Source: Teichococcus aerophilus
Lineage (GTDB): Bacteria; Pseudomonadota; Alphaproteobacteria; Acetobacterales; Acetobacteraceae
Assembly: GCF_014490485.1 (NCBI RefSeq)
Contig: NZ_JACTVA010000017.1
Span: 1-64,000 of the forward strand
Direction: 5' to 3'
DNA length: 64,000 nucleotides
A program made the position numbers and the translations under genes. Under the pieces are notes generated by a model that ran no database searches, was not told where the DNA came from, and saw nothing but the letters and a program-made list of their open reading frames with translations. Each line of letters begins with the position of its first letter. Within the stretch, counting starts at the first letter, position 1. Below, one piece after another: positions 1-10,664 of this stretch.

Positions 1-74
1 CAGAGGGGTACGGCTTGCGGGCACTCATGCCCCTCAGCCTGATCATTACCCGCCCAAAGGTCCATAACAGCCTC
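1..74 (-). mobile_element. IS5-family element, end fragment
   Basis: The first 74 bases match the transposase-start end of the IS copies at 32396-33255 and 37855-38646, including the terminal repeat AGGTCCATAACAGCCTC and the following TA. The rest of the element lies outside the window, so it may be a full copy or a remnant. It has the same orientation as the copy at 37855-38646. Confidence 0.75.
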
Positions 75-254
75 TAGTTGCCTCATAGACTCGCGAAAGA
101 AGATGGGGGTCTGGGGGAATTCCTTCCCCCAGCCTCCGTTCTACACCGACCATTCCTAGGAATATATTGACATGATCTTCTCTGGGTCCTACTCAACAGG
201 GGTCGACGCCATAGTCGCGCCCTCCGCCCAGCGACCCTGAAAGGCCGGCCAGAT

Positions 255-615
255 TATCGGAGGCGAAACCCCGAACCGCTGATGGCATGGCCGTCTGCCG
301 CGCTGAAGGTAGCCGATCGACGGCTGCTTCAGCAGGCCGGATGGGTGCAAAGACAGGGGTAGAAGCGGGCAGCGAGGCCGTCTCGCGGCAAAATCGCACC
401 TAAGCGCGGGGAAGTGCCGGTCCATTGAGAATCGGAGTCGATGCGACTCCGATTCCGGGGCTATTTTCGGAGCCGATACCCCGAATCGCGACACCTCTCC
501 CGGCCCGCGCAGATGCGCTTCTAAACGCCAGCGGCGGTCGAATTCGCTGCTAATTGGGGTTTTCGGAGGCGAAACCCCGAATCTTTGTCCCGCTTTCGGA
601 GGCGAAACCCCGAAC
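255..615 (+). repeat. Iteron array, putative plasmid origin
   Basis: Four copies of a 22-bp repeat with core TTTCGGAGGCGAAACCCCGA lie at 255-276, 465-486, 561-582 and 594-615. The second copy has two internal mismatches. All are in the same orientation. The copy at 561 is preceded by GGGG, so it can form a hairpin with its own CCCC. Iterons just upstream of an RPA-type initiator gene are the usual binding sites for that initiator, so this is the likely origin and incompatibility region. Shadow translations across it carry no gene. Confidence 0.75.
429..455. promoter_or_regulatory. 12-bp perfect inverted repeat inside the iteron region
   Basis: GAATCGGAGTCG, a 3-bp spacer ATG, then CGACTCCGATTC form a perfect inverted repeat. 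It shares the TCGGAG half with the iterons. In iteron plasmids an inverted iteron often serves as the autoregulatory operator of the initiator gene, and that is the suggested role here (inference). Confidence 0.5.
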
Positions 616-686
616 CTACCCCCTCGCGATCCCGCTGGGGTTATGCATGCTGGCGACAGAACAGAGCAGAACACCCGTTTCCAGCG

Positions 687-1721
687 ATGGCACGCCAACC
701 CACCTCGCGGCAGGAGCCCCCGGCGGACTCCGAAAAGCCCCCCTCCCCGCCCGTGCGGGGCAAGGCGGCCGCGCCCGCGCGTGCCCGCAGAGTGCGGGAA
801 GCCTTGCCGGACCTGTTCGACAGCCCACTGCGGGGCAAGGTGCGTGGCCAGCGCAGCGTCATGGCCTATCCGTTCTTCCACCTGGGCAAGACGGCGCCCA
901 CGCGCGACGTGCTGCGCTACGACGACGGCCAGGTGCGTATCGAGGTGGCGCCTGGCCCGTCCGGGATGGCCACCATCTACGACAAGGACCTGATCCTCTA
1001 CATCGCCTCCCTGATGGCCGAGAAGCTGCGGCGGGGCGAGCTGCGGGTCGATGACCCGAAGCCGGACCGGGAATTCACCTTCACCGCGCATGATTTCTTC
1101 CGTGTCGCCGGGCGGGATACCGCCGGCAAGGCCTATGACCGCCTGCTGCAGATGCTGCAGCGGCTGCAGGGTACCCAGGTGCGGACGAATATCGAGATGG
1201 CGGGCGAAGGCGCCGATGGCGTGTTCTCCTGGATCGACGCGGTGAACACCCGCTACCGCCGCAACGCGCGGAAGGAGAAGGAGCTGGTCAGCGTCTCGGT
1301 GACGCTGTGCGCCTGGCTCTATCGCGGCATCCTGAGCGATGCGCGGCTGCTGACCTTCTCCGACGGGTATTTCGACCTCGCGCCGCTGGAGCGCCGTCTC
1401 TACGAGATCGCCAAAGCCGAGGATGTCGACGAAGCCGGCTGGACGATCGGGATCGAGGACCTGCACGCCCGCGTCGGCACCAAGGGCCTGCTGCGGCACT
1501 TTGGCCAGTTCCTGAACGAGCTGGAGCAGACGCAGCGGCTTATCGAGTTCGATATCGGCCTGCATCGCCCGGCGGCTGAGCCGCAGCGGCGTGGACGGCC
1601 CGGCTATGAAGGCACGATCGTGACCTTCACCGCCCGGGCCAAGGCCCCGCAACCGCGCCGCCTGGATGCGGCTGGCGGAGACACACCAGCAACCGAGATG
1701 GAAGGACCCGCACGGGACTGA
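687..1721 (+). CDS. Plasmid replication initiator, RPA family
   Basis: This 344-aa protein resembles replication initiator protein A (the RPA family), which binds iterons and opens the plasmid origin. The conserved block starts near residue 50 with LFDSPLRGK and SVMAYPFFHLGK. It continues through a winged-helix-like region (YDKDLILYIASLMAEK, FTAHDFFRVAGRD), and the C-terminal half carries LTFSDGYFDLAPLERRLYEIA. The frame stays open upstream to a TTG at 585, but that would run through the last iteron. The ATG at 687 leaves the iterons free and gives a normal family length. The N-terminal 50 residues are rich in Pro, Arg and Ala. It lies upstream of a second initiator gene of the RepC type. The family call is from recalled motifs. 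Confidence 0.82.
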   Translation: MARQPTSRQEPPADSEKPPSPPVRGKAAAPARARRVREALPDLFDSPLRGKVRGQRSVMAYPFFHLGKTAPTRDVLRYDDGQVRIEVAPGPSGMATIYDKDLILYIASLMAEKLRRGELRVDDPKPDREFTFTAHDFFRVAGRDTAGKAYDRLLQMLQRLQGTQVRTNIEMAGEGADGVFSWIDAVNTRYRRNARKEKELVSVSVTLCAWLYRGILSDARLLTFSDGYFDLAPLERRLYEIAKAEDVDEAGWTIGIEDLHARVGTKGLLRHFGQFLNELEQTQRLIEFDIGLHRPAAEPQRRGRPGYEGTIVTFTARAKAPQPRRLDAAGGDTPATEMEGPARD

Positions 1722-1752
1722 CCCAGACCAGGCAAGGCCTGGAAACGCAAAA

Positions 1753-1772
1753 CCCCGCTTTGGCGAGCGGGG
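1753..1772 (+). terminator. Weak hairpin after the RPA initiator gene
   Basis: CCCCGCT and AGCGGGG form a 7-bp GC-rich stem around a 6-base loop 30 bases after the initiator stop codon. No T-run follows, so it may be an attenuator or a Rho-dependent site rather than an intrinsic terminator. Confidence 0.35.
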
Positions 1773-1923
1773 CTTGCTGAACATACCGAAGTTAGGCCGG
1801 TGGCCTAGGGGATGTCCTGAACACTCATCCATCTAGGTATCCGTGAGCTGATGGTCAAGCACGAAACCTGTTTTCGGCGCTGATGCATGCTCGTGCCCGC
1901 TTCGGTTTCTCTGATCCGAAGGA

Positions 1924-3237
1924 ATGGGCAACGTGGAACCTCTGGTATCCGTGCGGGCATCCGTGCGCGGGCTGCGCAAGCTAACCCCCAATCATCTGCT
2001 GGCCGCAAGGCTGGTGGAACAGGCCACCGGCCTGCCGCCGGGCGTCAAGCACCCCAACCAATTGCTGGCGACGCTGCGGCGGGCCGCCCCGTATCTGGGC
2101 TGCCACAGCCTGTTGCCGCTGATGGAAGCACTGTTCCGATGGACCCAGCCGCAGGATTGGGAACCGGGCGAGGACCCCATCGTCTGGCCGGGGAATGAGG
2201 AGCTGGCTAGTGCGCTGGGGTGCAGCGAGCGGCATGTCAGCCGGTTGATCGCCGCCGCCATCGAGGCGCGGCTGCTGGCGCCGAAGGATGGCAGCGACCG
2301 CCGCCGGCGCGGGGTACGGCAGAATGGCCGGATCCTCTGGGCCTGGGGTTTCAATCTGCGCCCGATGGCGGCGCGCCATGCCGAATTCCAGGAAGTGATC
2401 GAGGCCGGGGAGCTGGCACGGCGGCAATGCCGCGCGCTGCGCAGGGAAGCCTCGGCATCCTGCCAGTCGCTGGAGCAGTTCCTGGCCCTGGCACAGCAGA
2501 ACGGCCTTGAGGCCGAGATGCTGGGCGCGTGGCGGAACGAGGCGCAGCACCTGCGCGCCGGCCTGAGACGGATGGAAGAGCCGACGGCGCTGGAAGCGGT
2601 CGTCGCGCAGCTTCGCAACCTCGCGGCATCGGGCCTGGCCTGGCTGGAACAGGCCCTGGAAAACGCGGATATGTCAGGCTCGGCTGACGACGATGTCAGG
2701 CCTATTTTAACTACAATTCACTCCAGGGATCCTGAAAGGACTACGGTAGTGGCATTGAGGGAAGCCAGGACAGGTGGCGCCCTCCCCTCCCCGCTTCCAG
2801 CCATGGAGCTGGTGGCACAGCCGCCCTGCACGGTCTCGGCCGAGGAATTGGTCCGGCTGGCGCCAAAGCTCGGGCGGTGCCTGACCACAGATCGGCCTGA
2901 TCGGCCTGATTGGGCGGATGTAGCGGATGCGGCAGCGGTGCTGGCGCAGGACATGACCATCCCCCGAGTGCTGTACGCGGAAGCCTGCCGGCTGCTGGGA
3001 CGCCGAATGGCGGCGGTTGCCGTCGCGATCATCTCCACCAAGGCCGCGGGGCATTTCCGACAGGCGGGGCCAGGAGGCTACCTGCGCGGCATGCTGCGAA
3101 AGGCGCGGGAAGGATCCCTGCATCTCGACCGGAGTATTTTCGGGCTGCGGGAGGCCCAGGCCCCGGCTGTTCGTGGACATGCGCGACGGAGCGCGTGGAT
3201 GGCGAGGCGCCCCGGCACTGAACAGGCGTTTGCATGA
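1924..3237 (+). CDS. repC: Plasmid replication initiation protein RepC
   Basis: This 437-aa protein has the layout of RepC, the initiator of repABC plasmids. A conserved N-terminal block (residues 20-60, LTPNHLLAARLVEQATGLPP) is followed by a winged-helix region (NEELASALGCSERHVSRLI, near residues 90-110) and then the diagnostic WGFNLRPMAARHAEF. A linker of about 100 residues follows, and a C-terminal domain carries ADVADAAAVLAQDM. RepC usually acts on an origin within its own gene. Here the gene is upstream of repA and repB instead of last in a repA-repB-repC operon, and it follows a different kind of initiator. The ATG at 1924 sits directly after GAAGGA, which is very close for a ribosome site, so the GTG at 1933 is an alternative start. 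Confidence 0.8.
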   Translation: MGNVEPLVSVRASVRGLRKLTPNHLLAARLVEQATGLPPGVKHPNQLLATLRRAAPYLGCHSLLPLMEALFRWTQPQDWEPGEDPIVWPGNEELASALGCSERHVSRLIAAAIEARLLAPKDGSDRRRRGVRQNGRILWAWGFNLRPMAARHAEFQEVIEAGELARRQCRALRREASASCQSLEQFLALAQQNGLEAEMLGAWRNEAQHLRAGLRRMEEPTALEAVVAQLRNLAASGLAWLEQALENADMSGSADDDVRPILTTIHSRDPERTTVVALREARTGGALPSPLPAMELVAQPPCTVSAEELVRLAPKLGRCLTTDRPDRPDWADVADAAAVLAQDMTIPRVLYAEACRLLGRRMAAVAVAIISTKAAGHFRQAGPGGYLRGMLRKAREGSLHLDRSIFGLREAQAPAVRGHARRSAWMARRPGTEQAFA

Positions 3238-3804
3238 CGCCGGGCGTGCGTTCAGCGCTGTGACAGGTCTCGGAGAGGAACCGGAGGCGAGGATGTCGTG
3301 CCGCAAGCTCGCCAATCGTCACGGTGGTGGGAGGAGAGGTCAAAGGAAAGAATTCCCTTAAAATCGCCGCTTTGTTTTATGGGCTGGCGTAGTGCGTCAG
3401 GACCGACAGTTGGCGCTGTGAGAAAGACTATGGCCTGACCTTTCGGTGTTACCCCTGCCTAGGCCGAGAGGCTGGACCTCTCCACCAGCCAGGCCCACAG
3501 AGCCGCACGTCAGGAAGCTCCGGATAGTTCTTTGCTCGACCTTCCCGCCTAGGTCCGGGTCTCGACCGGCCCTGGCGCTGCACTTTCCGCACCGGTTCCT
3601 TCAGGCAAAGGCAAAGCCAGGATGACGCGGTCAAGGCAGTGCTGCAGGACACCTGATGGTCGCTCTGAGCGTCTTCATGGGGAAATTGTGCAGTTGACGG
3701 CCGTCAACTCGCTACTGAACGCCGAGGCCTGGCTTTCAAGCCCTGGACTTAGATGCGATATTGCCCCCCATATGCTCCTGAAGCCGCATTTGCGAGTGAA
3801 CGAC
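3238..3804. other. Intergenic region between repC and repA with a parS-like site
   Basis: No convincing gene is seen. The stretch holds the first 16-bp parS-like palindrome (3693-3708) and the probable repA promoter. The repA frame is open from 3622, so translation could begin upstream. Position and content fit an origin or incompatibility region, but no hairpin or antisense RNA could be assigned by eye. Confidence 0.5.
3693..3708. promoter_or_regulatory. parS-like centromere site 1
   Basis: GTTGACGGCCGTCAAC is a perfect 16-bp palindrome and fits the parS consensus of repABC plasmids, GTTNNNNGCNNNNAAC. The identical 16-mer recurs at 5058-5073, inside repB. It lies 97 bp before the chosen repA start. 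It is probably the binding site of the RepB encoded downstream. Confidence 0.75.
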
Positions 3805-5016
3805 ATGAATGGCCCAGCTGGCAACCGCAAGGTCGCGGATATCGACACCATCATCAGCGCCCAGGCACAGGAATTGTCCGAGCGGCTGCAAGCACACCGG
3901 CTGGAACTGTTCCCGCCCGCGGCACAAAAGCCGCTGCGCTCATTCCAGGCTTCGGAAGTGGCCAAGCTGCTGGGAGTGAAGAGCGGCTATCTGCGCAACC
4001 TGTCCCTGGAAGGCAAAGGCCCCTCCCCCAGCGTTACCAGCTCCGGCCGGCGCTTCTATGCGGCGGAACAGGTACAGGAACTTCGCGCCTACCTGGACCA
4101 GACCGGCCGACCGAGCCGCCGCTACGTCCCGCATCGCCGGGGCAAGGAGCATATCCAGGTCATCGCCGTCGTCAATTTCAAGGGCGGCAGCGGCAAGACG
4201 ACGACGACGGCGCATCTGGCCCAGCACCTGGCCCTGACCGGGCACCGCGTCCTGGCGGTGGATCTTGACCCGCAGGCCAGCCTGTCCGCCCTACATGGCT
4301 TCCAGCCGGAATTCGACCTGGGGCCGAACGAGACGCTCTACGCAGCACTCCGCTATGACGACGAGGCCCGCCCGCTCTCCGAATTGATCCGGCCGACCAA
4401 TTTCCCCGGGCTGCATATCGTCCCGGCGAATATCGAGCTGATGGAATTCGAGTACGATACGCCGCGCGTGTTGGCGACGCATGAAGGCGGCGCCACGGGG
4501 CGGGATTTCTTCGCCCGGCTGGATAATGCCCTAGCCACCGTGGCTGATGACTACGACATCGTCGTCATCGACTGCCCGCCGCAGCTTGGCTACCTTACCA
4601 TGGCGGCACTCTGTACGGCGACGGCAGTACTGATTCCGGTGCATCCGCAGATGCTGGACGTCATGTCCATGTGCCAGTTCCTGCTGATGCTGGGCGACGT
4701 GCTGAGCCATCTGAAATCCGCGGGCGGCAATCTGCGCTACGACTGGATGCGCTACCTCGTCACCCGCTACGAGCCGAGCGACGGGCCGCAGACCCAGATG
4801 GTCGGCTTCATGCGCTCCTTGTTCGGGGAACATGTGTTGACCCATCCGATGCTGAAGAGCGTCGCCATTTCCGATGCCGGCATCACCAAGCAAACCCTGT
4901 ACGAGGTGGAGCGCCGGCAGTTCACACCCGCGACCTACGACCGGGCATTGGAATGCCTGGATGCAGTGAATGGCGAGGTCGAACAACTGGTCCACCAGGC
5001 CTGGGGGAGGGGATAA
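3805..5016 (+). CDS. repA: Plasmid partition ATPase RepA (ParA family)
   Basis: This 403-aa Walker-type ATPase moves plasmid copies apart together with RepB and parS, and usually also represses its own operon. An N-terminal region (about residues 45-100) carries a MerR-like helix-turn-helix (FQASEVAKLLGVKSGYLRNLSLEG). The deviant Walker A motif KGGSGKTTTT is near residues 126-135, then DLDPQASLS, and the Walker B region IVVIDCPPQLG. The ATG at 3805 gives the usual family length of about 400 residues. The frame is open to 3622, so an extended start (for example ATG at 3772) is possible. The stop codon is followed at once by the repB ATG (TAA-ATG), so the two are co-translated. Confidence 0.9.
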   Translation: MNGPAGNRKVADIDTIISAQAQELSERLQAHRLELFPPAAQKPLRSFQASEVAKLLGVKSGYLRNLSLEGKGPSPSVTSSGRRFYAAEQVQELRAYLDQTGRPSRRYVPHRRGKEHIQVIAVVNFKGGSGKTTTTAHLAQHLALTGHRVLAVDLDPQASLSALHGFQPEFDLGPNETLYAALRYDDEARPLSELIRPTNFPGLHIVPANIELMEFEYDTPRVLATHEGGATGRDFFARLDNALATVADDYDIVVIDCPPQLGYLTMAALCTATAVLIPVHPQMLDVMSMCQFLLMLGDVLSHLKSAGGNLRYDWMRYLVTRYEPSDGPQTQMVGFMRSLFGEHVLTHPMLKSVAISDAGITKQTLYEVERRQFTPATYDRALECLDAVNGEVEQLVHQAWGRG

Positions 5017-6105
5017 ATGGCCCGCAAGAACCTGCTCACCGGCTTGACGGCCCCAAAGTTGACGGCCGTCAACTCCGATACGCCAACCACCAGCGCGCCC
5101 ACCCGTGCGCCCGGCCTGGCCTTCGCCAGCCGCGGCGCGGTGGGTGCGGTGACACGGAGCATCGAGGATCTGGCCGCCAAGGCCAATGCGGCGAAGGAAC
5201 TGGAAGCCAAGCTGATTTCCGGCCAGGTAATCGTCGATCTGGACCCGGCAACGGTGGATGCATCCTTCGTCGCTGACCGCATGGCGCAGGATGATGGCGA
5301 GTACCAAGCGCTGCGGGACAGCATCGCCGCCAGCGGGCAGGATTCGCCCATCCTGGTACGCCCGCATCCGGAAGGGCAGGGGCGCTACCAGGTTGCCTTC
5401 GGGCACCGGCGGTTGCGGGCGGCCAAGGAACTTGGCAAGCCGGTGCGTGCGGTGGTGCGGCCACTGTCCGACCGGGAATTGGTGCTGGCGCAGGGGCAGG
5501 AGAACAGCGCCCGGGCCAACCTGTCCTTTATCGAGCGCGCGCGCTTCGCGCACCGACTAGAGCAGGGAGGCTACGACCGGGAGACGATCATGCTGGCGCT
5601 GAGCGCCGACAAGACCACGGTCTCCCGCCTCATCACCGTTATCGAGCGTATTCCGCCTGCCGTGGTGGACGCGATCGGCGCCGCGCCGGCAACCGGCCGC
5701 GACCGGTGGGTCGAGCTGGCGAACCTGTTTCGGCAGGAGCAGGCCGAGGATCTGACGACGCTGGTTGAAAGCGCGCCGTTCCAGGGCCTGGATTCTGACG
5801 CCCGTTTCCAGCAGGTGCTGGGCCGGCTCAGCCAACCGGACCCTGTTGCGGCGCCTGTGGCCGAGCCTGAGCCGCAAAGGCCAGCCCGGGCAGGGGAGGG
5901 GGCTTCGTTCCGCCACTGGGCCCATTCCAGCGGCACCCGGGTGCTGAAGGTGGCAACTGGCGAGCGGGCGACGACTTTGACCATCGATAACCGCCGCGTG
6001 CCGGGCTTCGACGCCTTCCTGTTGGAGCGGATGGAGGAACTCTACTCCGCCTTCATCAAGACGGCGGGCACGGCTGCGCCCAGGAAGAAGGGTGGACGAG
6101 GGTAG
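5017..6105 (+). CDS. repB: Plasmid partition protein RepB (ParB family)
   Basis: This 362-aa centromere-binding protein has the ParB/RepB order. A short basic N-terminus for contact with RepA comes first, then the ParB nuclease-like fold at about residues 70-160 with GQDSPILVRPHP, the box FGHRRLRAAKEL and the ENSARANLSFIERARFA box. A helix-turn-helix follows near residue 190 (LALSADKTTVSRLITVIERIP). The Ala/Pro-rich linker near 285 leads to a C-terminal dimerisation segment. Codons 14-19 contain the second parS-like palindrome, so the gene carries its own binding site. It starts directly after the repA stop and ends before a long gene-free stretch. Confidence 0.9.
   Translation: MARKNLLTGLTAPKLTAVNSDTPTTSAPTRAPGLAFASRGAVGAVTRSIEDLAAKANAAKELEAKLISGQVIVDLDPATVDASFVADRMAQDDGEYQALRDSIAASGQDSPILVRPHPEGQGRYQVAFGHRRLRAAKELGKPVRAVVRPLSDRELVLAQGQENSARANLSFIERARFAHRLEQGGYDRETIMLALSADKTTVSRLITVIERIPPAVVDAIGAAPATGRDRWVELANLFRQEQAEDLTTLVESAPFQGLDSDARFQQVLGRLSQPDPVAAPVAEPEPQRPARAGEGASFRHWAHSSGTRVLKVATGERATTLTIDNRRVPGFDAFLLERMEELYSAFIKTAGTAAPRKKGGRG
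5058..5073. promoter_or_regulatory. parS-like centromere site 2, inside repB
   Basis: This is the same 16-mer GTTGACGGCCGTCAAC as at 3693-3708. It lies within the first 60 bases of repB, and a half-site TTGACGGCC lies just before it at 5044. It encodes Leu-Thr-Ala-Val-Asn in the repB frame. Confidence 0.75.
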
Positions 6106-6984
6106 GGGCGGTTCTGCCGGCTAGACCAGGGCAGCTATAGAGCTCCGCCCCCTCTCCAGCATCCCTGCTGTCCTCATGCGCCTGTGGTTGGGTAAGGCCC
6201 TCCTCAGGCAGCGCTACTGATCCGCGGCGCCGGTGTGCCCGGCCGCTGCGGCAAGCCCGCTGCTGGCAGGCCTATGAGGGCGGACCGCTCCCCACCAGCC
6301 TTCCTGTGTGAACGATCGATCCATCCGTCACAGCCGCCTGAACGGTGTGGCCACTTGTCCCTGCCGGTCATGGCCCGCTCCACGCTCGGGCGGCGCTGCG
6401 TGTGAGTTGATAGGGGAGGGGCCGACGGCACGGTTGGGCCGGTACCGTCAGCGTTCATGGCGGAGTCCCTTATAGCCCAAAGGCTGTCTGGAACTTCGGC
6501 GACTGATGGCGCGGCTGGGATTTTTCGTGCCAGCGCAGGGGTGGCACTGGCCAAATGCGGGGACACTTGGCCAAGCCGCCGACGGAGCGGGTGCTGCAAA
6601 GCCCGTCGTAACCGACCGGTCAGAGCTTCCAGACGGTCTCTAAGCCCACCCGACCTCAACGAAGCCTAAGCCCGGGATTTTGGCTCTCCATCGTATCCGC
6701 AGGCTTGGCGTCCCTATAACCAGTGCCACGTGACCCCTTTGGCGGCTTCCCGGAATACTTACTGAAGAACACCTGGCACGGGTTCCCAAAGGCCTCAGGC
6801 CTTTGGCGGAGAGAGTTCGAGAGGGGCGGCGCCCCTCTCAAGGCAGCGCAGCAAGCCAAGAAAGCCTGCAAAACAGGACTGCCCTAACTCGTGATAACGC
6901 CTATTATCGCGAGTAAGCCTGTTAACACCGCTTGCCCAGCCTCCAGACGACCGGCACATTGGCGCGTCGAGGCAGGGGAGCAGC
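6106..6984. other. Gene-free region between repB and the recombinase
   Basis: No open frame here has convincing protein features. The only recognised element is the dif-like site at 6887-6914. The bases just before it (about 6790-6880) are less GC-rich than the flanks. The stretch may also hold the recombinase promoter. Confidence 0.5.
6887..6914. promoter_or_regulatory. dif-like 28-bp recombination site
   Basis: ACTCGTGATAA, a 6-bp centre cgccta, then TTATCGCGAGT. The 11-bp arms are inverted repeats with one mismatch (10 of 11), giving the 11-6-11 layout of XerC/XerD dif, cer and psi sites, with the inner GATAA/TTATC next to the centre. It lies 70 bp before a tyrosine recombinase gene, so it is the likely substrate for resolving plasmid dimers. 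No second copy was noticed by eye. Confidence 0.65.
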
Positions 6985-7980
6985 ATGGGCGGCGAGATCG
7001 CGATCGGCAGCGCGCAGGCGGCGCAATGGGTGGCGGAGCCGACGGAGCAGGGGCTCGCCGCGTTGCTGGCGGCCGAGGAATATCTGCAGCTCTCCTTCGC
7101 GCCGGCGACGCAGCGCGCCTACAGCGCCGACTGGAAGGATTTCCTGCGCTTCTGCGCCGAGATGGGCTTCGTCGCCATGCCCGCGACGCCGAAGACCGTG
7201 GCCGCCTACCTGGTCAGCATCGCCAAGCTGCGCTCGCCCGCCACGGTGCGGCGGCGGCTGGCGGCCATCCGGCTCGCGCACCGCCTGGCGCGGGAAGCAG
7301 CACCGGCCGAGGATGCGGAGGTGCAGATCGCGCTGAAGGGCACGCGGCGCCGGCATGGCCGCCCGGTGCAACAGGCCGCGGCCATCCGCCTGACGGAATT
7401 GCGCCGGCTGCTGTCGACCTGCACGGAGGATGCGACCGGACGGCGGGACCGGGCGCTGTTGCTGCTGGGCTTCGCCGGGGCGCTGCGACGTTCGGAGTTG
7501 GTGGCGCTGGACGTGACGGACCTGACGCACACGATGGAGGGGCTGCGGCTGCGCATCCGGCGCAGCAAAACCGACACGGCGGCGGAGGGGGTGGAGCTGG
7601 GCATCCCACGCGGGCGGAACCCGCTGACCTGCCCGGTGCGGGCGGTGGAAGCCTGGCTGGCCACGTTGAAGCACCGCACCGGGCCGCTGTTCCGTGCCGT
7701 GCACCAGACCGGCGCCATCGGGCGGGAACGGCTGCACGCGGATTCGGTGCGCTTCATCCTGCAAGCCCATGCCAGGAAGGCCGGGCTGCCGGTGACCGGC
7801 CCCAAGCGCATCACCGCGCATGGCCTGCGCGCCGGCTTCATCACCGAGGCGTATGACCGCGGCCTGCGCGACCGCGACATCATGCAGCACAGCCGGCACC
7901 GGGACCTCAAGACGATGCACGGCTATGTCCGCCTGGCCCGGCTGCTGACCGACAGCCCGGCGGGCGAGGTCGGGTTGTGA
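6985..7980 (+). CDS. Tyrosine recombinase (XerC/D-like integrase)
   Basis: This 331-aa site-specific recombinase has an N-terminal core-binding SAM-like domain (about residues 25-105, FAPATQRAYSADWKDFLRFC) and a C-terminal catalytic domain from about residue 135. All catalytic residues can be seen: Arg168 in GALRRSEL, Lys195 in RRSKTD, His279 and Arg282 in HGLRAG, His305, and the nucleophile Tyr314 in HGYVR. A dif-like site lies just upstream. Its stop overlaps the GTG start of the next gene (GTGA), and that gene overlaps scpA, so the three form one transcription unit. The likely role is resolution of plasmid multimers; an integrase of a past mobile element is the alternative. Confidence 0.85.
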   Translation: MGGEIAIGSAQAAQWVAEPTEQGLAALLAAEEYLQLSFAPATQRAYSADWKDFLRFCAEMGFVAMPATPKTVAAYLVSIAKLRSPATVRRRLAAIRLAHRLAREAAPAEDAEVQIALKGTRRRHGRPVQQAAAIRLTELRRLLSTCTEDATGRRDRALLLLGFAGALRRSELVALDVTDLTHTMEGLRLRIRRSKTDTAAEGVELGIPRGRNPLTCPVRAVEAWLATLKHRTGPLFRAVHQTGAIGRERLHADSVRFILQAHARKAGLPVTGPKRITAHGLRAGFITEAYDRGLRDRDIMQHSRHRDLKTMHGYVRLARLLTDSPAGEVGL

Positions 7981-8720
7981 GCAGCTTCCGGTTTCCGTGG
8001 GAGGACGAGGCTGCCCCGTCCGCCCCGGCGCCAAACCCCCCGGCACCCAACACCCCGGCGCCCAACACCCTGGCGCCCGTGCCGAAGCCCCGCCCGGGGC
8101 GGCCGAAGGGACTGGGCCGCGCCGGGGCGATCCTGGCCCGGCAACCACCGGTGGAGCCGGCGGCGGACACGGCGGCACGCCACACGGAATGGTTGGCCTG
8201 CCGCCTGGATGTCTCGGGGCCGGAGGACGCATTGCACGCCTTCGCTGTGGCGGCAGCCGGAGCCGGGGTGACGCCCTGGGCGCGCGATTTCGCCGCCGAG
8301 GAAGAGGATGTGTTCCACCTGCTGGCGGCACGCGCGCCCCAGGACGGGCGGCTGTCGCTGGAGGCCTGCCGCATCTTCGCCGCGCAGTTCCGGGAGCGCT
8401 TGCAGGACCACCACGATCGCGCCCTGGCCCGCCTCGACCACAGCCGCGCCTGCCCGTTCGACCTGCAGGCGCTGCTACCGGTGCCGGCGCCGATCCTCGG
8501 CCTGGGCGTGCGGCATCCGGACGCGGCACGCTGGCTGGCGGCGCATTGGGGCACAACGGAACTCCGCAAATCCATGCTGCATCCCGGCAAGGCGCGGCAG
8601 CGCCCGCTGGCCACGCTGCGCTACAGCTTCTTCGCCGCCGATACGCTGCCGCGGGCAGCGGTGCGGCGCCTGGCGAGGGCCTGGCCGCACCTGGCGCTGG
8701 ACCTGGGCGGCGCCGGGTGA
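7977..8720 (+). CDS. Unrecognised protein between recombinase and ScpA
   Basis: This 247-aa protein starts at a GTG that overlaps the recombinase stop and ends overlapping the GTG of scpA. I do not recognise the family. Residues 12-40 are a low-complexity Ala-Pro-Asn segment encoded by a 15-bp tandem repeat, followed by a basic patch (RPGRPKGLGRAG). The remainder is probably alpha-helical and Ala/Arg/Leu-rich, with no membrane segment or known catalytic motif. Tight coupling on both sides argues for a shared task in recombination or plasmid segregation. A DNA-binding adaptor is possible from the basic N-terminus, but this is only inference. Confidence 0.6.
   Translation: MSSFRFPWEDEAAPSAPAPNPPAPNTPAPNTLAPVPKPRPGRPKGLGRAGAILARQPPVEPAADTAARHTEWLACRLDVSGPEDALHAFAVAAAGAGVTPWARDFAAEEEDVFHLLAARAPQDGRLSLEACRIFAAQFRERLQDHHDRALARLDHSRACPFDLQALLPVPAPILGLGVRHPDAARWLAAHWGTTELRKSMLHPGKARQRPLATLRYSFFAADTLPRAAVRRLARAWPHLALDLGGAG
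8024..8083 (+). repeat. Four 15-bp tandem repeats in the unknown gene
   Basis: The unit CCCGGCGCCCAACAC is repeated four times with small changes (8024, 8039, 8054, 8069). Because 15 is a multiple of three, copy-number change keeps the reading frame. It encodes a Pro-Ala-Pro-Asn-Thr linker. Confidence 0.7.
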
Positions 8721-9502
8721 CACCAGCGGCGGAGGTGCAGGGCGCCACGCTGGTCGTCCACCTGGAGGGCTATGACGGGCCGATCGACCTGCTGCTGGAG
8801 CTGGCGCGGGCGCAGAAGGTGGATCTGGCCCGGCTGTCGCTGCGCGACTTGATCGACCAGTACCTGGCGGCGGTGGAGGCAGGTCGCGGCGTGGCATCGC
8901 TGGCCGAACGCAGCGAGTGGCTGATCGCCGCCAGCCGGCTGGTGTTGCTGAAATCCCGGCTGCTGGTGCAGGCGGAGGACGCGCCCGCGCCGGCCGACGC
9001 GGACCGCCTGCTGGAGGAGCTGGCCCGCGCCGCGCAGCGGCAGCACGCTCGGGCGCTGGCGGCCTGGCTGGAGGCACGGCCGCAACTCGGCCACGACATC
9101 TTTGCCCGCGGCCGGCCGGACGCGCCGCGGCAGGCGGGCTACCAGGGCGATATCCTCGACCTGCTGCTGGCGTGTTTCGACCTGCTGGAACCGCCCCGCC
9201 CGCCCGCCCCGCCGCCGCGCTACACGCCGCCGAGCCTGGATGTCTGGACCCTGGCCGAGGCGTTGCAGCACTTGCAGGCGCAGTTATCCCAGCACCCGGC
9301 GGGCGGCGCGCTGCAGCACTTCGTCCCGGAGCGGGAAAGCGGCGAAGCCGGCGGCCTGCGCCGCCGTTCCGGCGTGGCCAGCACCTTCCTGGCGGGGCTG
9401 GAACTGGCCAAGCAGGGCAGGGTGGTGTTGCAGCAGCAGGAGAATTTCGGCGTCCTGCAGGTGCGGCTCAGCGCGGACGCGGGTGCGCCGGCAGCGGTGT
9501 AG
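8717..9502 (+). CDS. scpA: Segregation and condensation protein ScpA
   Basis: This 261-aa ScpA/kleisin protein links SMC heads in bacterial condensin. The N-terminal signature LEGYDGPIDLLLELARAQKVDLARLSLRDLIDQ (seen from residue 15) and the following EWLIAASRLVLLKSRLLV helix are diagnostic. The C-terminal winged-helix part ends with VASTFLAGLELAKQGRVVLQQQENFGVLQV. The GTG at 8717 overlaps the previous stop and gives the usual ScpA length; the frame is open further upstream but only as a shadow of the previous gene. No ScpB or SMC gene follows, so it would have to work with chromosomal partners or with the unknown protein encoded before it. Confidence 0.9.
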   Translation: MTPAAEVQGATLVVHLEGYDGPIDLLLELARAQKVDLARLSLRDLIDQYLAAVEAGRGVASLAERSEWLIAASRLVLLKSRLLVQAEDAPAPADADRLLEELARAAQRQHARALAAWLEARPQLGHDIFARGRPDAPRQAGYQGDILDLLLACFDLLEPPRPPAPPPRYTPPSLDVWTLAEALQHLQAQLSQHPAGGALQHFVPERESGEAGGLRRRSGVASTFLAGLELAKQGRVVLQQQENFGVLQVRLSADAGAPAAV

Positions 9503-9692: not shown

Positions 9693-10664
9693 TCAGTCGG
9701 CGTATTCGTTGGCTGCCTGGATGATCGGACGCCAGCGGGCAATCTCCTCGGCCAGGAAGCGGCGGTGATAGGCCGGCGTGGCCCGCTCCTCCGTGACCGG
9801 CTCCGTCACCAGTTCAGCGAAGCGCTGCCGTAGCCGCTCGTCACGCAACGCGGCGCGAAGCGCGACCGACAGGCGCTCCTGCACCTCGAGCGGGGTATTG
9901 GCCGGCGCGTACAGGCCGTGCCAGGTGCTCATCACCAGCCCCGGCCGCCCGGCCTCTGCCGTGGTAGGCAGGTCGAGGCCGGCCACCCGCTGAGGTGCCG
10001 TAACTGCGTAGCCCCGGACGTTGCCGTCGCGGATGAACGGAGCCGTGCTCGTGGCTTGATCGCAGAACACGTCCACGCGTCCGGCCACCAGCTCGGTCAG
10101 CGCCGGCCCTCCGCCACGAAAGGCCACTGGGGTCATTGCCGTCCCTACCGTCTGCTGGAGCAGCAGGCCGCAAAGATGGTTGGCGGCGCCGATGCCAGCG
10201 TGCGCCAGGTTCAGCCGGTCCCCCTGGCGCTGGATCTCGGCAATGTAGCCGGCAAGGTCAGTGGCCGGAAAATCCCGCCGCGCCACCAGGGTCATGGCCG
10301 CGTCCGAAACTAGGCCCAGCGGTGCAAAGCTGTCGGTCACGCTGTAGGGCAGCCGGCGGTACAGGGTGGCGCTGGTGGCGTGGCCAATATGGTGCATCAG
10401 CAGGGTGTGGCCGTCGGCCCGGGCGTTGGCCACGCGCGCCGCGCCGATGGTGCCGCCGGCTCCACCCGCGTTCTCCACCACCACCGGCTGTCCGAGGTCG
10501 CGGCCCATGGGCTCGGCGATAAGGCGGGTGATGGCGTCGGAAGAACCGCCGGCGGCGAAGGGCACGATGATCGTGATGGCTCGGTTCGGAAACGGCTGCT
10601 GCGCCCGAACGGCGGGGGTGCAGAGCAAGGCCGGCACGGCGGTCAGCAAGGCGCGACGCTTCAT
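9693..10664 (-). CDS. Bug/TctC-family solute-binding protein
   Basis: This 323-aa periplasmic receptor belongs to the Bug (tripartite tricarboxylate transporter) family. The chosen start (position 10664) follows a strong GGAGGA ribosome site and gives a clear signal peptide, MKRRALLTAVPALLCTPAVRAQ. Family hallmarks follow: FPNRAITIIVPFAAGGSSD, GQPVVVENAGGAGGTIGAARVANARADGHTLL and GIGAANHLC. It lies just downstream of D(-)-tartrate dehydratase on the same strand, so tartrate or a related hydroxy-diacid is a plausible ligand. The membrane subunits TctA and TctB are not in the window. Confidence 0.85.
   Translation of the reverse strand: MKRRALLTAVPALLCTPAVRAQQPFPNRAITIIVPFAAGGSSDAITRLIAEPMGRDLGQPVVVENAGGAGGTIGAARVANARADGHTLLMHHIGHATSATLYRRLPYSVTDSFAPLGLVSDAAMTLVARRDFPATDLAGYIAEIQRQGDRLNLAHAGIGAANHLCGLLLQQTVGTAMTPVAFRGGGPALTELVAGRVDVFCDQATSTAPFIRDGNVRGYAVTAPQRVAGLDLPTTAEAGRPGLVMSTWHGLYAPANTPLEVQERLSVALRAALRDERLRQRFAELVTEPVTEERATPAYHRRFLAEEIARWRPIIQAANEYAD

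Follow-up and report, generated by a model that had tools for sequence, protein, structure and literature searches.

A conserved operon of a tyrosine recombinase, a predicted YubB-like protein and a plasmid-type ScpA beside a dif-like palindrome: a candidate plasmid maintenance module of the Acetobacteraceae

The operon described here is formed from three overlapping genes that encode a tyrosine recombinase, a middle protein with a predicted YubB-like fold and a plasmid-type ScpA kleisin. Together with a 28-bp palindrome ahead of the recombinase gene, this trio is read as a conserved Acetobacteraceae plasmid maintenance module in which dimer resolution would be coupled to recruitment of the host SMC-ScpB, a reading that we hold to be evenly balanced between acceptance and doubt. 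The existence of a conserved module is well supported by sequence comparison, and a coupling of dimer resolution to plasmid condensation is inferred. Plasmids may in this manner call the host condensing machine to a site of their own choosing.

The stretch analysed (the window) comprises positions 1 to 64,000 of NZ_JACTVA010000017.1 (assembly GCF_014490485.1, Teichococcus aerophilus); the contig with the operon, C50, has a length of 90,262 bp. The operon is found downstream of repC-repA-repB (Table 1). As the earlier note had described, the three genes overlap stop to start; each overlap is of 4 bp (7977-7980 for the recombinase and middle genes, 8717-8720 for the middle gene and scpA). Its observation that this ScpA is not accompanied by an scpB or smc of its own also holds: the genome has a single ScpB match, which lies beside another ScpA on a different contig (C94), and no PF02463 (SMC_N) match falls on C50 among the 48 genome matches listed. 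The host genome contains SMC and one ScpA-ScpB pair.

Table 1. Replication, partition and operon features of the window
Feature	Position	Strand	Basis
RPA-type replication initiator	585..1721	+	PF10134, 179.4 bits
RepC replication protein	1924..3237	+	NF040974, 185.6 bits (cut-off 150); PF03428
RepA/ParA partition ATPase	3622..5016	+	TIGR03453, 649 bits (cut-off 348)
RepB/ParB partition protein	5017..6105	+	TIGR03454, 369 bits (cut-off 201.5)
28-bp dif-like palindrome, ACTCGTGATAA-CGCCTA-TTATCGCGAGT (11-6-11)	6887..6914	.	Palindrome comparison across loci
Tyrosine recombinase (331 aa)	6985..7980	+	PF00589; six catalytic residues present
Middle protein (247 aa), predicted divergent YubB/Api92-like ferredoxin-fold with helical insert	7977..8720	+	AlphaFold2, Foldseek BFVD, hhalign
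Plasmid-type ScpA kleisin (261 aa)	8717..9502	+	PF02616, PDB profile matches, fold, tree

The earlier note had singled out the trio as a possible undescribed system that should recur elsewhere, and a survey of gene neighbourhoods finds it to be widely conserved, mostly in Acetobacteraceae. Used as the query of a scan, the middle protein finds 114 relatives, and the counts that follow rest on the 80 genome-contig loci listed of these. Acetobacteraceae names are attached to 74 of the 80. The recombinase is adjacent to or fused with the middle gene in 75 (71 by the neighbour rule plus 4 fusions), and ScpA lies directly downstream in 64, a rule-based figure that overlooks L030 and L033, both of which have ScpA there. 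In one genome (G017) the middle protein is present and a PF02616 match is absent. The 44 PLSDB records with the middle protein, 15 of which were fetched, are all from Acetobacteraceae genera. Contigs of more than 300 kb carry 2 of the 80 loci, one contig being of 5.4 Mb, and RepA/RepB relatives occur inside the fetched flank of 4 of the 80 genome-contig loci and 1 of the 15 PLSDB loci. Purifying selection on the recombinase, middle gene and scpA is evident in the sequences, with dN/dS medians of 0.23-0.32 taken over pairs of 60-98.5% identity and dS below 2.5 that are not independent of one another. A phage origin was considered and set aside, as 27 stretches of viral contigs gave a match and none of them could be confirmed to be a relative. 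No description of a plasmid ScpA paired with a recombinase was found in the open-licence literature.

The recombinase matches Phage_integrase (PF00589) with 50.3 bits against a cut-off of 27.1 and retains by motif an RKHRHY set (Arg169, Lys195, His279, Arg282, His302 and Tyr314), which we take to be the catalytic residues of a tyrosine recombinase. The palindrome, which ends 70 bp before the recombinase ATG, is probably the recombination and binding site of this enzyme. Its pattern was derived from the window itself, so that a shuffle control of 0 is no test alone; the test is comparison across loci. Similar palindromes are found upstream of the recombinase in 57 of the 85 loci with enough upstream sequence, the same search finding no site in the other 28, and core palindromes are approximately 19-fold denser upstream (67 in 172 kb) than elsewhere (16 in 763 kb). 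Among loci with the core, the centre is 6 bp in 25 and 7 bp in 41. Arm sequences vary from locus to locus while self-complementarity is kept: of the 6 positions of the outer arms 4.82 pair, and dealing the arms among sites lowers this to 2.87 (maximum of 2000 shuffles 3.48). Moreover, the distance between sites tracks the distance between recombinases (r 0.50, with 0 of 2000 permutations as high). As the arms differ between loci and yet remain self-complementary, each recombinase seems to have evolved together with its site. This enrichment and covariation support the earlier note in its idea that dimers are resolved at a dif-like site, and recombination would take place at the palindrome. Further relatives of the recombinase are encoded in the host genome, two of them at about 220 bits, and could act at such palindromic sites.

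The plasmid ScpA matches SMC_ScpA (PF02616) with 50.3 bits against a gathering score of 24.6, and comes nowhere near the equivalog cut-offs that NCBIfam sets for ScpA (best score 63.8 against 234). In a phylogenetic tree the 54 trio ScpAs separate from 34 chromosomal-type ScpAs at a support of 1.0 with none misplaced. A profile built from trio ScpAs alone finds 4i98, ScpA of the ScpA-ScpB complex (E 2e-21), and 3zgx, the SMC-bound N domain (E 4e-16) in the PDB. By sequence, the match of the C domain is a weak one (5h66, E 0.03). In the fold search no PDB match of the plasmid ScpA reaches E 0.001, and the best neighbours of the predicted C domain are ScpA C domains bound to SMC heads (4i99, E 1.3e-3; 5h66, TM 0.84 of target), with 5xg3 also among the best. 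Most residues conserved in chromosomal ScpA are kept by the trio ScpAs, and at 42 positions the two groups share an identical residue that is conserved to 80% or more. The earlier note had asked whether the residues that contact SMC are lacking; at the level of profile, fold and domain comparison both SMC-binding domains appear to be kept, so that an N domain for the SMC neck and a C-terminal winged helix for the SMC head are probably retained. On sequence evidence the earlier interpretation thus withstands both of the conditions that were set to refute it, and is supported in part.

No family of Pfam or NCBIfam matches the middle protein at E up to 1, and a match to PF18406 is absent in the 15 and in the 72 members scanned. 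Its AlphaFold2 model is of low confidence over the first ~65 residues. Searched against BFVD with Foldseek, the model gives YubB ferredoxin-like proteins in 8 of the first 12 rows, the best match having E 1.2e-4, a probability of 1.00 and a TM of 0.38 of query and 0.55 of target; a search of PDB folds gave nothing significant. Alignment of its profile to YubB relatives with hhalign gives a probability of 91.6 (E 8e-7 for a single comparison, uncorrected for a database), and three other profiles used as controls remain at 0.1-0.2. Judged by predicted structure and profile, the middle protein has a ferredoxin fold of a divergent, YubB-like type. Matches in PHROGs were at chance level, and a plasmid search with one YubB relative as query gave no match. 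Two other identities were discarded. DUF1403 gave two matches under the curated cut-off in 60 family genomes, to proteins that seem unrelated by eye, and ScpB or another kleisin partner is disfavoured by a fold that is ferredoxin-like and not winged-helix, and by an hhalign probability of 0.2 to ScpB.

The operon recombinase is without its catalytic end in 17 of the 80 listed loci, all of which have a ScpA match downstream and where the middle protein and ScpA are both retained. Three loci that miss one or two catalytic residues (L033, L047 and L071) and four with the recombinase in broken pieces (L060, L077, L082 and L091) are outside this class. In seven truncated-recombinase loci the site lies between the operon recombinase and a second, divergent recombinase, which misses at least one of the six catalytic residues. 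With two PLSDB loci included, 13 of 19 have a site under a looser rule, which allows up to 5 arm mismatches, a 6-8 bp centre and a weaker core than the scan of the 85 loci. The truncated recombinases also appear to be kept under purifying selection; the group of 20 loci compared includes L047, which is outside the truncated class (17 + 2), L063, with its recombinase split over two frames, and fused Komagataeibacter and Novacetimonas ORFs, in which the segment may extend beyond the recombinase part, and the unfused pairs concur (L066/L085, 0.20; L098/L101, 0.21). Recombinases may, this suggests, be reused as DNA-binding subunits. Neither these loci nor the YubB-like fold of the middle protein had a place in the earlier account of the trio.

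The operon could instead serve plain dimer resolution and dosage, with ScpA no more than an additional condensin subunit to match the added plasmid DNA, mechanically uncoupled from the site, and the middle protein an accessory factor of the recombinase. Once rule misses and a contig end are allowed for, ScpA is not directly downstream in 13 of the 80 loci (including L105, where it is downstream on the other strand), and a recombinase is present in 11 of these 13 (one recombinase in pieces). In L118, from another family, the recombinase and middle gene likewise occur with no ScpA, and DarT/DarG-like genes come after them. The recombinase-middle pair can therefore do without ScpA, and the partner of the middle protein is the recombinase rather than the kleisin, which favours this reading. 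Nevertheless we find this explanation doubtful, since 12 of the 14 annotated PLSDB copies have an scpA that overlaps the middle gene, the trio ScpAs form a separate clade, ScpB is not supplied in most loci (it is near three of the related loci searched, L014, L105 and L107), and all parts are retained where the operon recombinase is without its catalytic end.

It is unlikely that the plasmid ScpA is a decoy or antagonist, which would enter the host SMC-ScpB and weaken or redirect it, so that the plasmid is shielded or the host does not segregate before plasmid partition has taken place. In the absence of ScpB or SMC, such a kleisin copy could indeed be dominant negative, and the trio ScpAs are divergent, with 25-59% identity to the window copy; however, conservation of the SMC-binding domains and of the segment that is part of the ScpA-ScpB core in 4i98 is more in keeping with a bridging kleisin than with a fragment-like inhibitor, and the linked site is left unexplained. 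Highly improbable is a mobile-element integrase that moves the operon between plasmids from the palindrome as attachment site with ScpA as cargo, for although the enzyme is a tyrosine recombinase, some genomes hold several copies and toxin-antitoxin cassettes lie between site and recombinase in L018-L020, the window has a single site, just upstream of the recombinase and with no second copy, its geometry is dif-like, it appears to co-evolve with the recombinase and the gene content recurs across loci.

In the maintenance module that we prefer, the recombinase would bind its own 28-bp site and resolve plasmid dimers, and the identity of arms and spacer would keep co-resident plasmids apart. The YubB-like protein would bridge the site-bound recombinase and the kleisin, and the plasmid ScpA would join the SMC and ScpB of the host, which would bring about assembly or loading of condensin at the plasmid site. 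Condensin placed there would individualise sister plasmids and help the two sites of a dimer to pair, with an expected effect on plasmid stability. A more specific form is offered tentatively, as possible: the site-bound recombinase, via the YubB-like adaptor and the plasmid kleisin, may be a dedicated platform at which host SMC-ScpB is loaded. The recombinase of several lineages would have lost catalysis and been left as the site-binding subunit, perhaps with the divergently encoded second recombinase for strand exchange. Another replicon may also have the site by itself and be served in trans, as is suggested by a palindrome with the same arms on contig C96 of the host genome. To our knowledge, little is described of how low-copy plasmids acquire SMC activity, and ParB at parS is the described means of reaching a defined SMC loading site. 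If true, a plasmid kleisin tied to a recombination site would be a second route of SMC loading, dimer resolution and condensation would be linked within one operon, and a natural site-specific condensin loader would become usable in experiments. We know of no established function for the YubB family, and its fold gains a setting in which its role can be tested.

MksBEFG/Wadjet, which defends against plasmids, combines in a single operon the genes of an SMC ATPase, a kite protein and a nuclease; none of the SMC_N matches listed for the genome is on C50. A defence system was also discarded because PADLOC gives no match for the recombinase or middle protein and just a weak one for ScpA (BrxD, 17.8 bits). 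Chromosomal ScpA of the SMC-ScpAB condensin shares PF02616, the N-terminal domain, the C-terminal winged helix and an RPxLGxDVFxRG segment with the plasmid ScpA, which differs in its separate clade, the usual absence of scpB nearby and the link to a recombinase and site. The YubB/Api92-like proteins (DUF1281_C, PF18406) and the middle protein have in common a b-a-b-b-a-b core and a P(V/I)P ... HWGT ... W(S/T)P region; the middle protein is distinguished by falling below Pfam detection, by inserted helices and by the tyrosine recombinase that adjoins it in most listed loci. Plasmid dimers are resolved by tyrosine recombinases in Cre/loxP of P1 and ResD/rfsF of F. Like these and like Xer/dif (PMC5357621, PMC2731167), the operon has a recombinase gene beside a 28-bp palindrome, made up of two 11-bp arms around a 6-bp centre (in relatives the centre is 6 or 7 bp). 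It differs from all three by the added YubB-like protein and kleisin and by the lineages that keep a truncated recombinase beside a second one, and from Xer/dif in that the window recombinase is far under the equivalog cut-offs of XerC (51.2 against 335) and XerD (47.7 against 330). Finally, in the recruitment of SMC by ParB-parS (PMC8494293, PMC13342612) a DNA-binding protein bound at its site acts as SMC loader, which is the logic proposed here, with the difference that a recombinase would take the place of ParB at the site and that the kleisin is encoded by the plasmid.

The three ORFs form an overlapping operon, as the earlier note had read them, with a four-base overlap at each junction. 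The first encodes a tyrosine recombinase in which all six catalytic residues are in place by motif. The second, the middle protein, gave no Pfam or NCBIfam match. The third contains an SMC_ScpA domain that scores above the Pfam cut-off and far below the equivalog cut-offs of chromosomal ScpA. The contig (C50, 90,262 bp) is very probably a plasmid, because genes for an RPA-type initiator, RepC, RepA and RepB lie upstream of the trio on the same strand; the first 3 kb showed no repeat of the contig end. RepC, itself 5' of repA-repB, adjoins the other kind of initiator.

Positions of the features discussed
Feature	Sequence	Positions	Strand	Description
RPA and RepC initiator genes	window	585-3237	+	
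Dif-like palindrome	window	6887-6914		28 bp, 11-6-11, one arm mismatch
Recombinase gene	window	6985-7980	+	
Middle gene	window	7977-8720	+	
ScpA-like gene	window	8717-9502	+	
ScpB gene near trio	L105	6574-7224		
ScpB gene near trio	L107	340-975		
ScpB gene near trio	L014	836-1372		
Recombinase, YubB-like, DarT-like and DarG-macrodomain-like genes	L118 (G397:C40)	1-3090		
Second site	L215 (G000:C96)	about 9999-10026		

The trio is conserved beyond the window. By tblastn the middle protein matches 44 PLSDB plasmid records from seven genera, all Acetobacteraceae, of which 15 were sampled for gene order with genes called by annotation or profile. The recombinase lies directly 5' of the middle gene in 14 of the 15 (fused in L008, truncated in L011), and a ScpA-like gene, truncated in some, directly 3' in 14, none being annotated in L012. 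The 5' exception, the R. mucosa AD1 plasmid (L010), retains the middle gene and ScpA and has a VapC gene in the place of the recombinase and a recombinase on the opposite strand; L016 carries an additional middle-ScpA pair without recombinase. Scanning 84,980 species genomes for the middle protein yielded 114 relatives, and 80 of these were listed. By name, 74 of these 80 are Acetobacteraceae or its genera, some of which we take to belong to the family, and the remaining six are MAGs (Rhodospirillales (3), Nevskia, Caulobacteraceae and Proteobacteria). In 75 of the listed loci the recombinase gene neighbours the middle gene or is fused to it, and a contig end cuts two of the other five. By a strict rule ScpA lies directly 3' in 64 of the 80 and both neighbours are present in 57. 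The contigs are at most 300 kb for 78 of the 80. Of 60 genomes sampled from the family, 13 encode the middle protein, as do 2 of 385 in the class sample, with the window's own genome counted in both. Among the 60, it is found in seven of the eight with at least two PF02616 matches against 6 of the 52 others (Fisher p 3e-5, a value that ignores relatedness). Three ScpA matches from outside the family (Azospirillum, Sphingomonas and Sinorhizobium) proved on examination to be conventional scpA-scpB pairs carried by large replicons.

Palindromes of this kind are concentrated upstream of the recombinase. Using the core GRTAA/GRCAA-N6/7-TTAYC/TTGYC and at most four arm mismatches, palindromes were found 5' of the recombinase in 57 of the 85 loci with enough upstream sequence, and seven in 754 kb elsewhere, some being the same site slightly further upstream. 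When the arm filter is dropped, the 172 kb upstream contain 67 cores and the 763 kb elsewhere 16. Between the two arms, the six outer bases pair at 4.82 of 6 positions, compared with 2.87 if right arms are reassigned at random among sites (maximum of 2000 shuffles 3.48); excluding identical sites gives 4.65 and 2.71 (largest shuffle 3.35). Recombinase distance correlates with site distance (r 0.50, 65 loci), which none of 2000 permutations reached. Sites differ among the copies within strains that have several, and three R. pecuniae loci have almost identical arms with a different spacer each; several further multi-copy strains had one copy or more at which the search detected no site. VapC, PemK/MazF or related toxin-antitoxin genes lie between palindrome and recombinase in L018, L019 and L020. 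Contig C96 of the window's genome carries one further site, whose arms are identical to those in the window and whose spacer differs. The 20 kb around it showed no trio gene, and a ParA-like gene lies about 5.4 kb away, so this contig may represent a second plasmid that is served in trans. The genome also encodes other recombinase relatives, two at about 220 bits.

In 51 of the 80 loci the recombinase keeps all six catalytic residues; in 17 it has lost the C-terminal catalytic part, in seven it has one or two residue losses or broken frames, and five loci have no adjacent recombinase. In ten of the 17 the profile match stops at 273-276 of 340, immediately before the HxxR box, and in L050 and L064 inside it; Komagataeibacter and Novacetimonas encode the remnant and the middle protein as one fusion. 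Seven loci (L008, L041, L052, L055, L063, L102 and L103) have a second recombinase, encoded divergently, with the palindrome between the two. In five of these it retains the first Arg, Lys, first His and Tyr, differs at the second His position in all five, and has Lys for the second Arg in three; the L102 and L103 copies are truncated or imperfect. By a looser rule, the site is present in 13 of 19 loci lacking the catalytic part, two PLSDB loci counted. Median dN/dS in the group classed as dead and in the active one is 0.23 (25 pairs) and 0.30 (633 pairs) for the recombinase, 0.27 and 0.32 for the middle gene, and 0.26 and 0.29 for ScpA. Given these medians and the retained site, the truncated recombinase seems to be kept for a role other than catalysis, which would most simply be binding the site and holding partners.

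An AlphaFold2 model of the middle protein (72 sequences) has mean pLDDT 84.5 and pTM 0.70, with a confident core ordered b-a-(helices)-b-b-a-b (block means mostly above 90) and low confidence for residues 1 to about 65. The model gave nothing significant against the PDB, and the 72 members no consistent Pfam match. Against viral models, YubB ferredoxin-like proteins fill eight of the first 12 Foldseek rows (best two E 1.2e-4 and 1.7e-4, probability 1.00, with a modest TM of 0.38-0.40 of the query). In a single hhalign comparison, a profile of 60 YubB relatives aligned with the C-terminal half at probability 91.6 (E 8e-7), against 0.1-0.2 for recombinase, ScpA and ScpB profiles. The protein is taken as a divergent member of this fold group on model and profile grounds; the literature search found no paper on YubB function.

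A profile built from 54 trio ScpAs alone finds the kleisin in the ScpA-ScpB complex (E 2e-21) and the N domain in its SMC-bound form (E 4e-16), and weakly the C domain (E 0.03). The structural model (mean pLDDT 81.5, pTM 0.41) is confident for the N and C domains and poor for the linker; its closest PDB neighbours are ScpA-C on SMC heads (4i99, 5h66, 5xg3) and cohesin/condensin kleisins, none reaching E 0.001. Trio and chromosomal ScpA share the same residue, at least 80% conserved, at 42 positions. The tree places the 54, together with four extra copies, apart from 34 chromosomal-type ScpAs (split support 1.0, none misplaced). Of the fetched chromosomal-type loci of the family, 30 of 31 have scpB in the same 2-4 kb stretch; ScpB was found in three of the trio loci searched, and in L105 it adjoins a further ScpA encoded on the opposite strand. 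A single ScpB match and SMC occur elsewhere in the window's genome. Given these results, the plasmid ScpA would be expected to work with the SMC and ScpB of the host.

The recombinase-middle pair lacks a directly downstream ScpA in 11 of the 80 loci. In L118, from another family of the class, a recombinase and a YubB-like gene (one stop inside the match) precede genes that by eye resemble DarT and the DarG macrodomain, and there is no ScpA. Because of these ScpA-less pairs, gene content suggests that the pair is older and ScpA was added later.

Read most economically, the operon would be a plasmid maintenance module that would resolve dimers at its own site, to which the YubB-like protein and plasmid kleisin would bring host condensin. 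As described for dif, recombination at a 6-bp centre is taken to proceed without accessory proteins, and the 8-bp centre of ColE1-like sites is associated with them (PMC2731167). No published description of this gene combination was found in the open-licence literature. Site-directed SMC recruitment has a known parallel in ParB at parS (PMC8494293; PMC13342612). The parts are of known kinds, and the module is rated a variant of plasmid site-specific recombination modules, with a chance that it is a new kind of condensin loader, for which it is a candidate.
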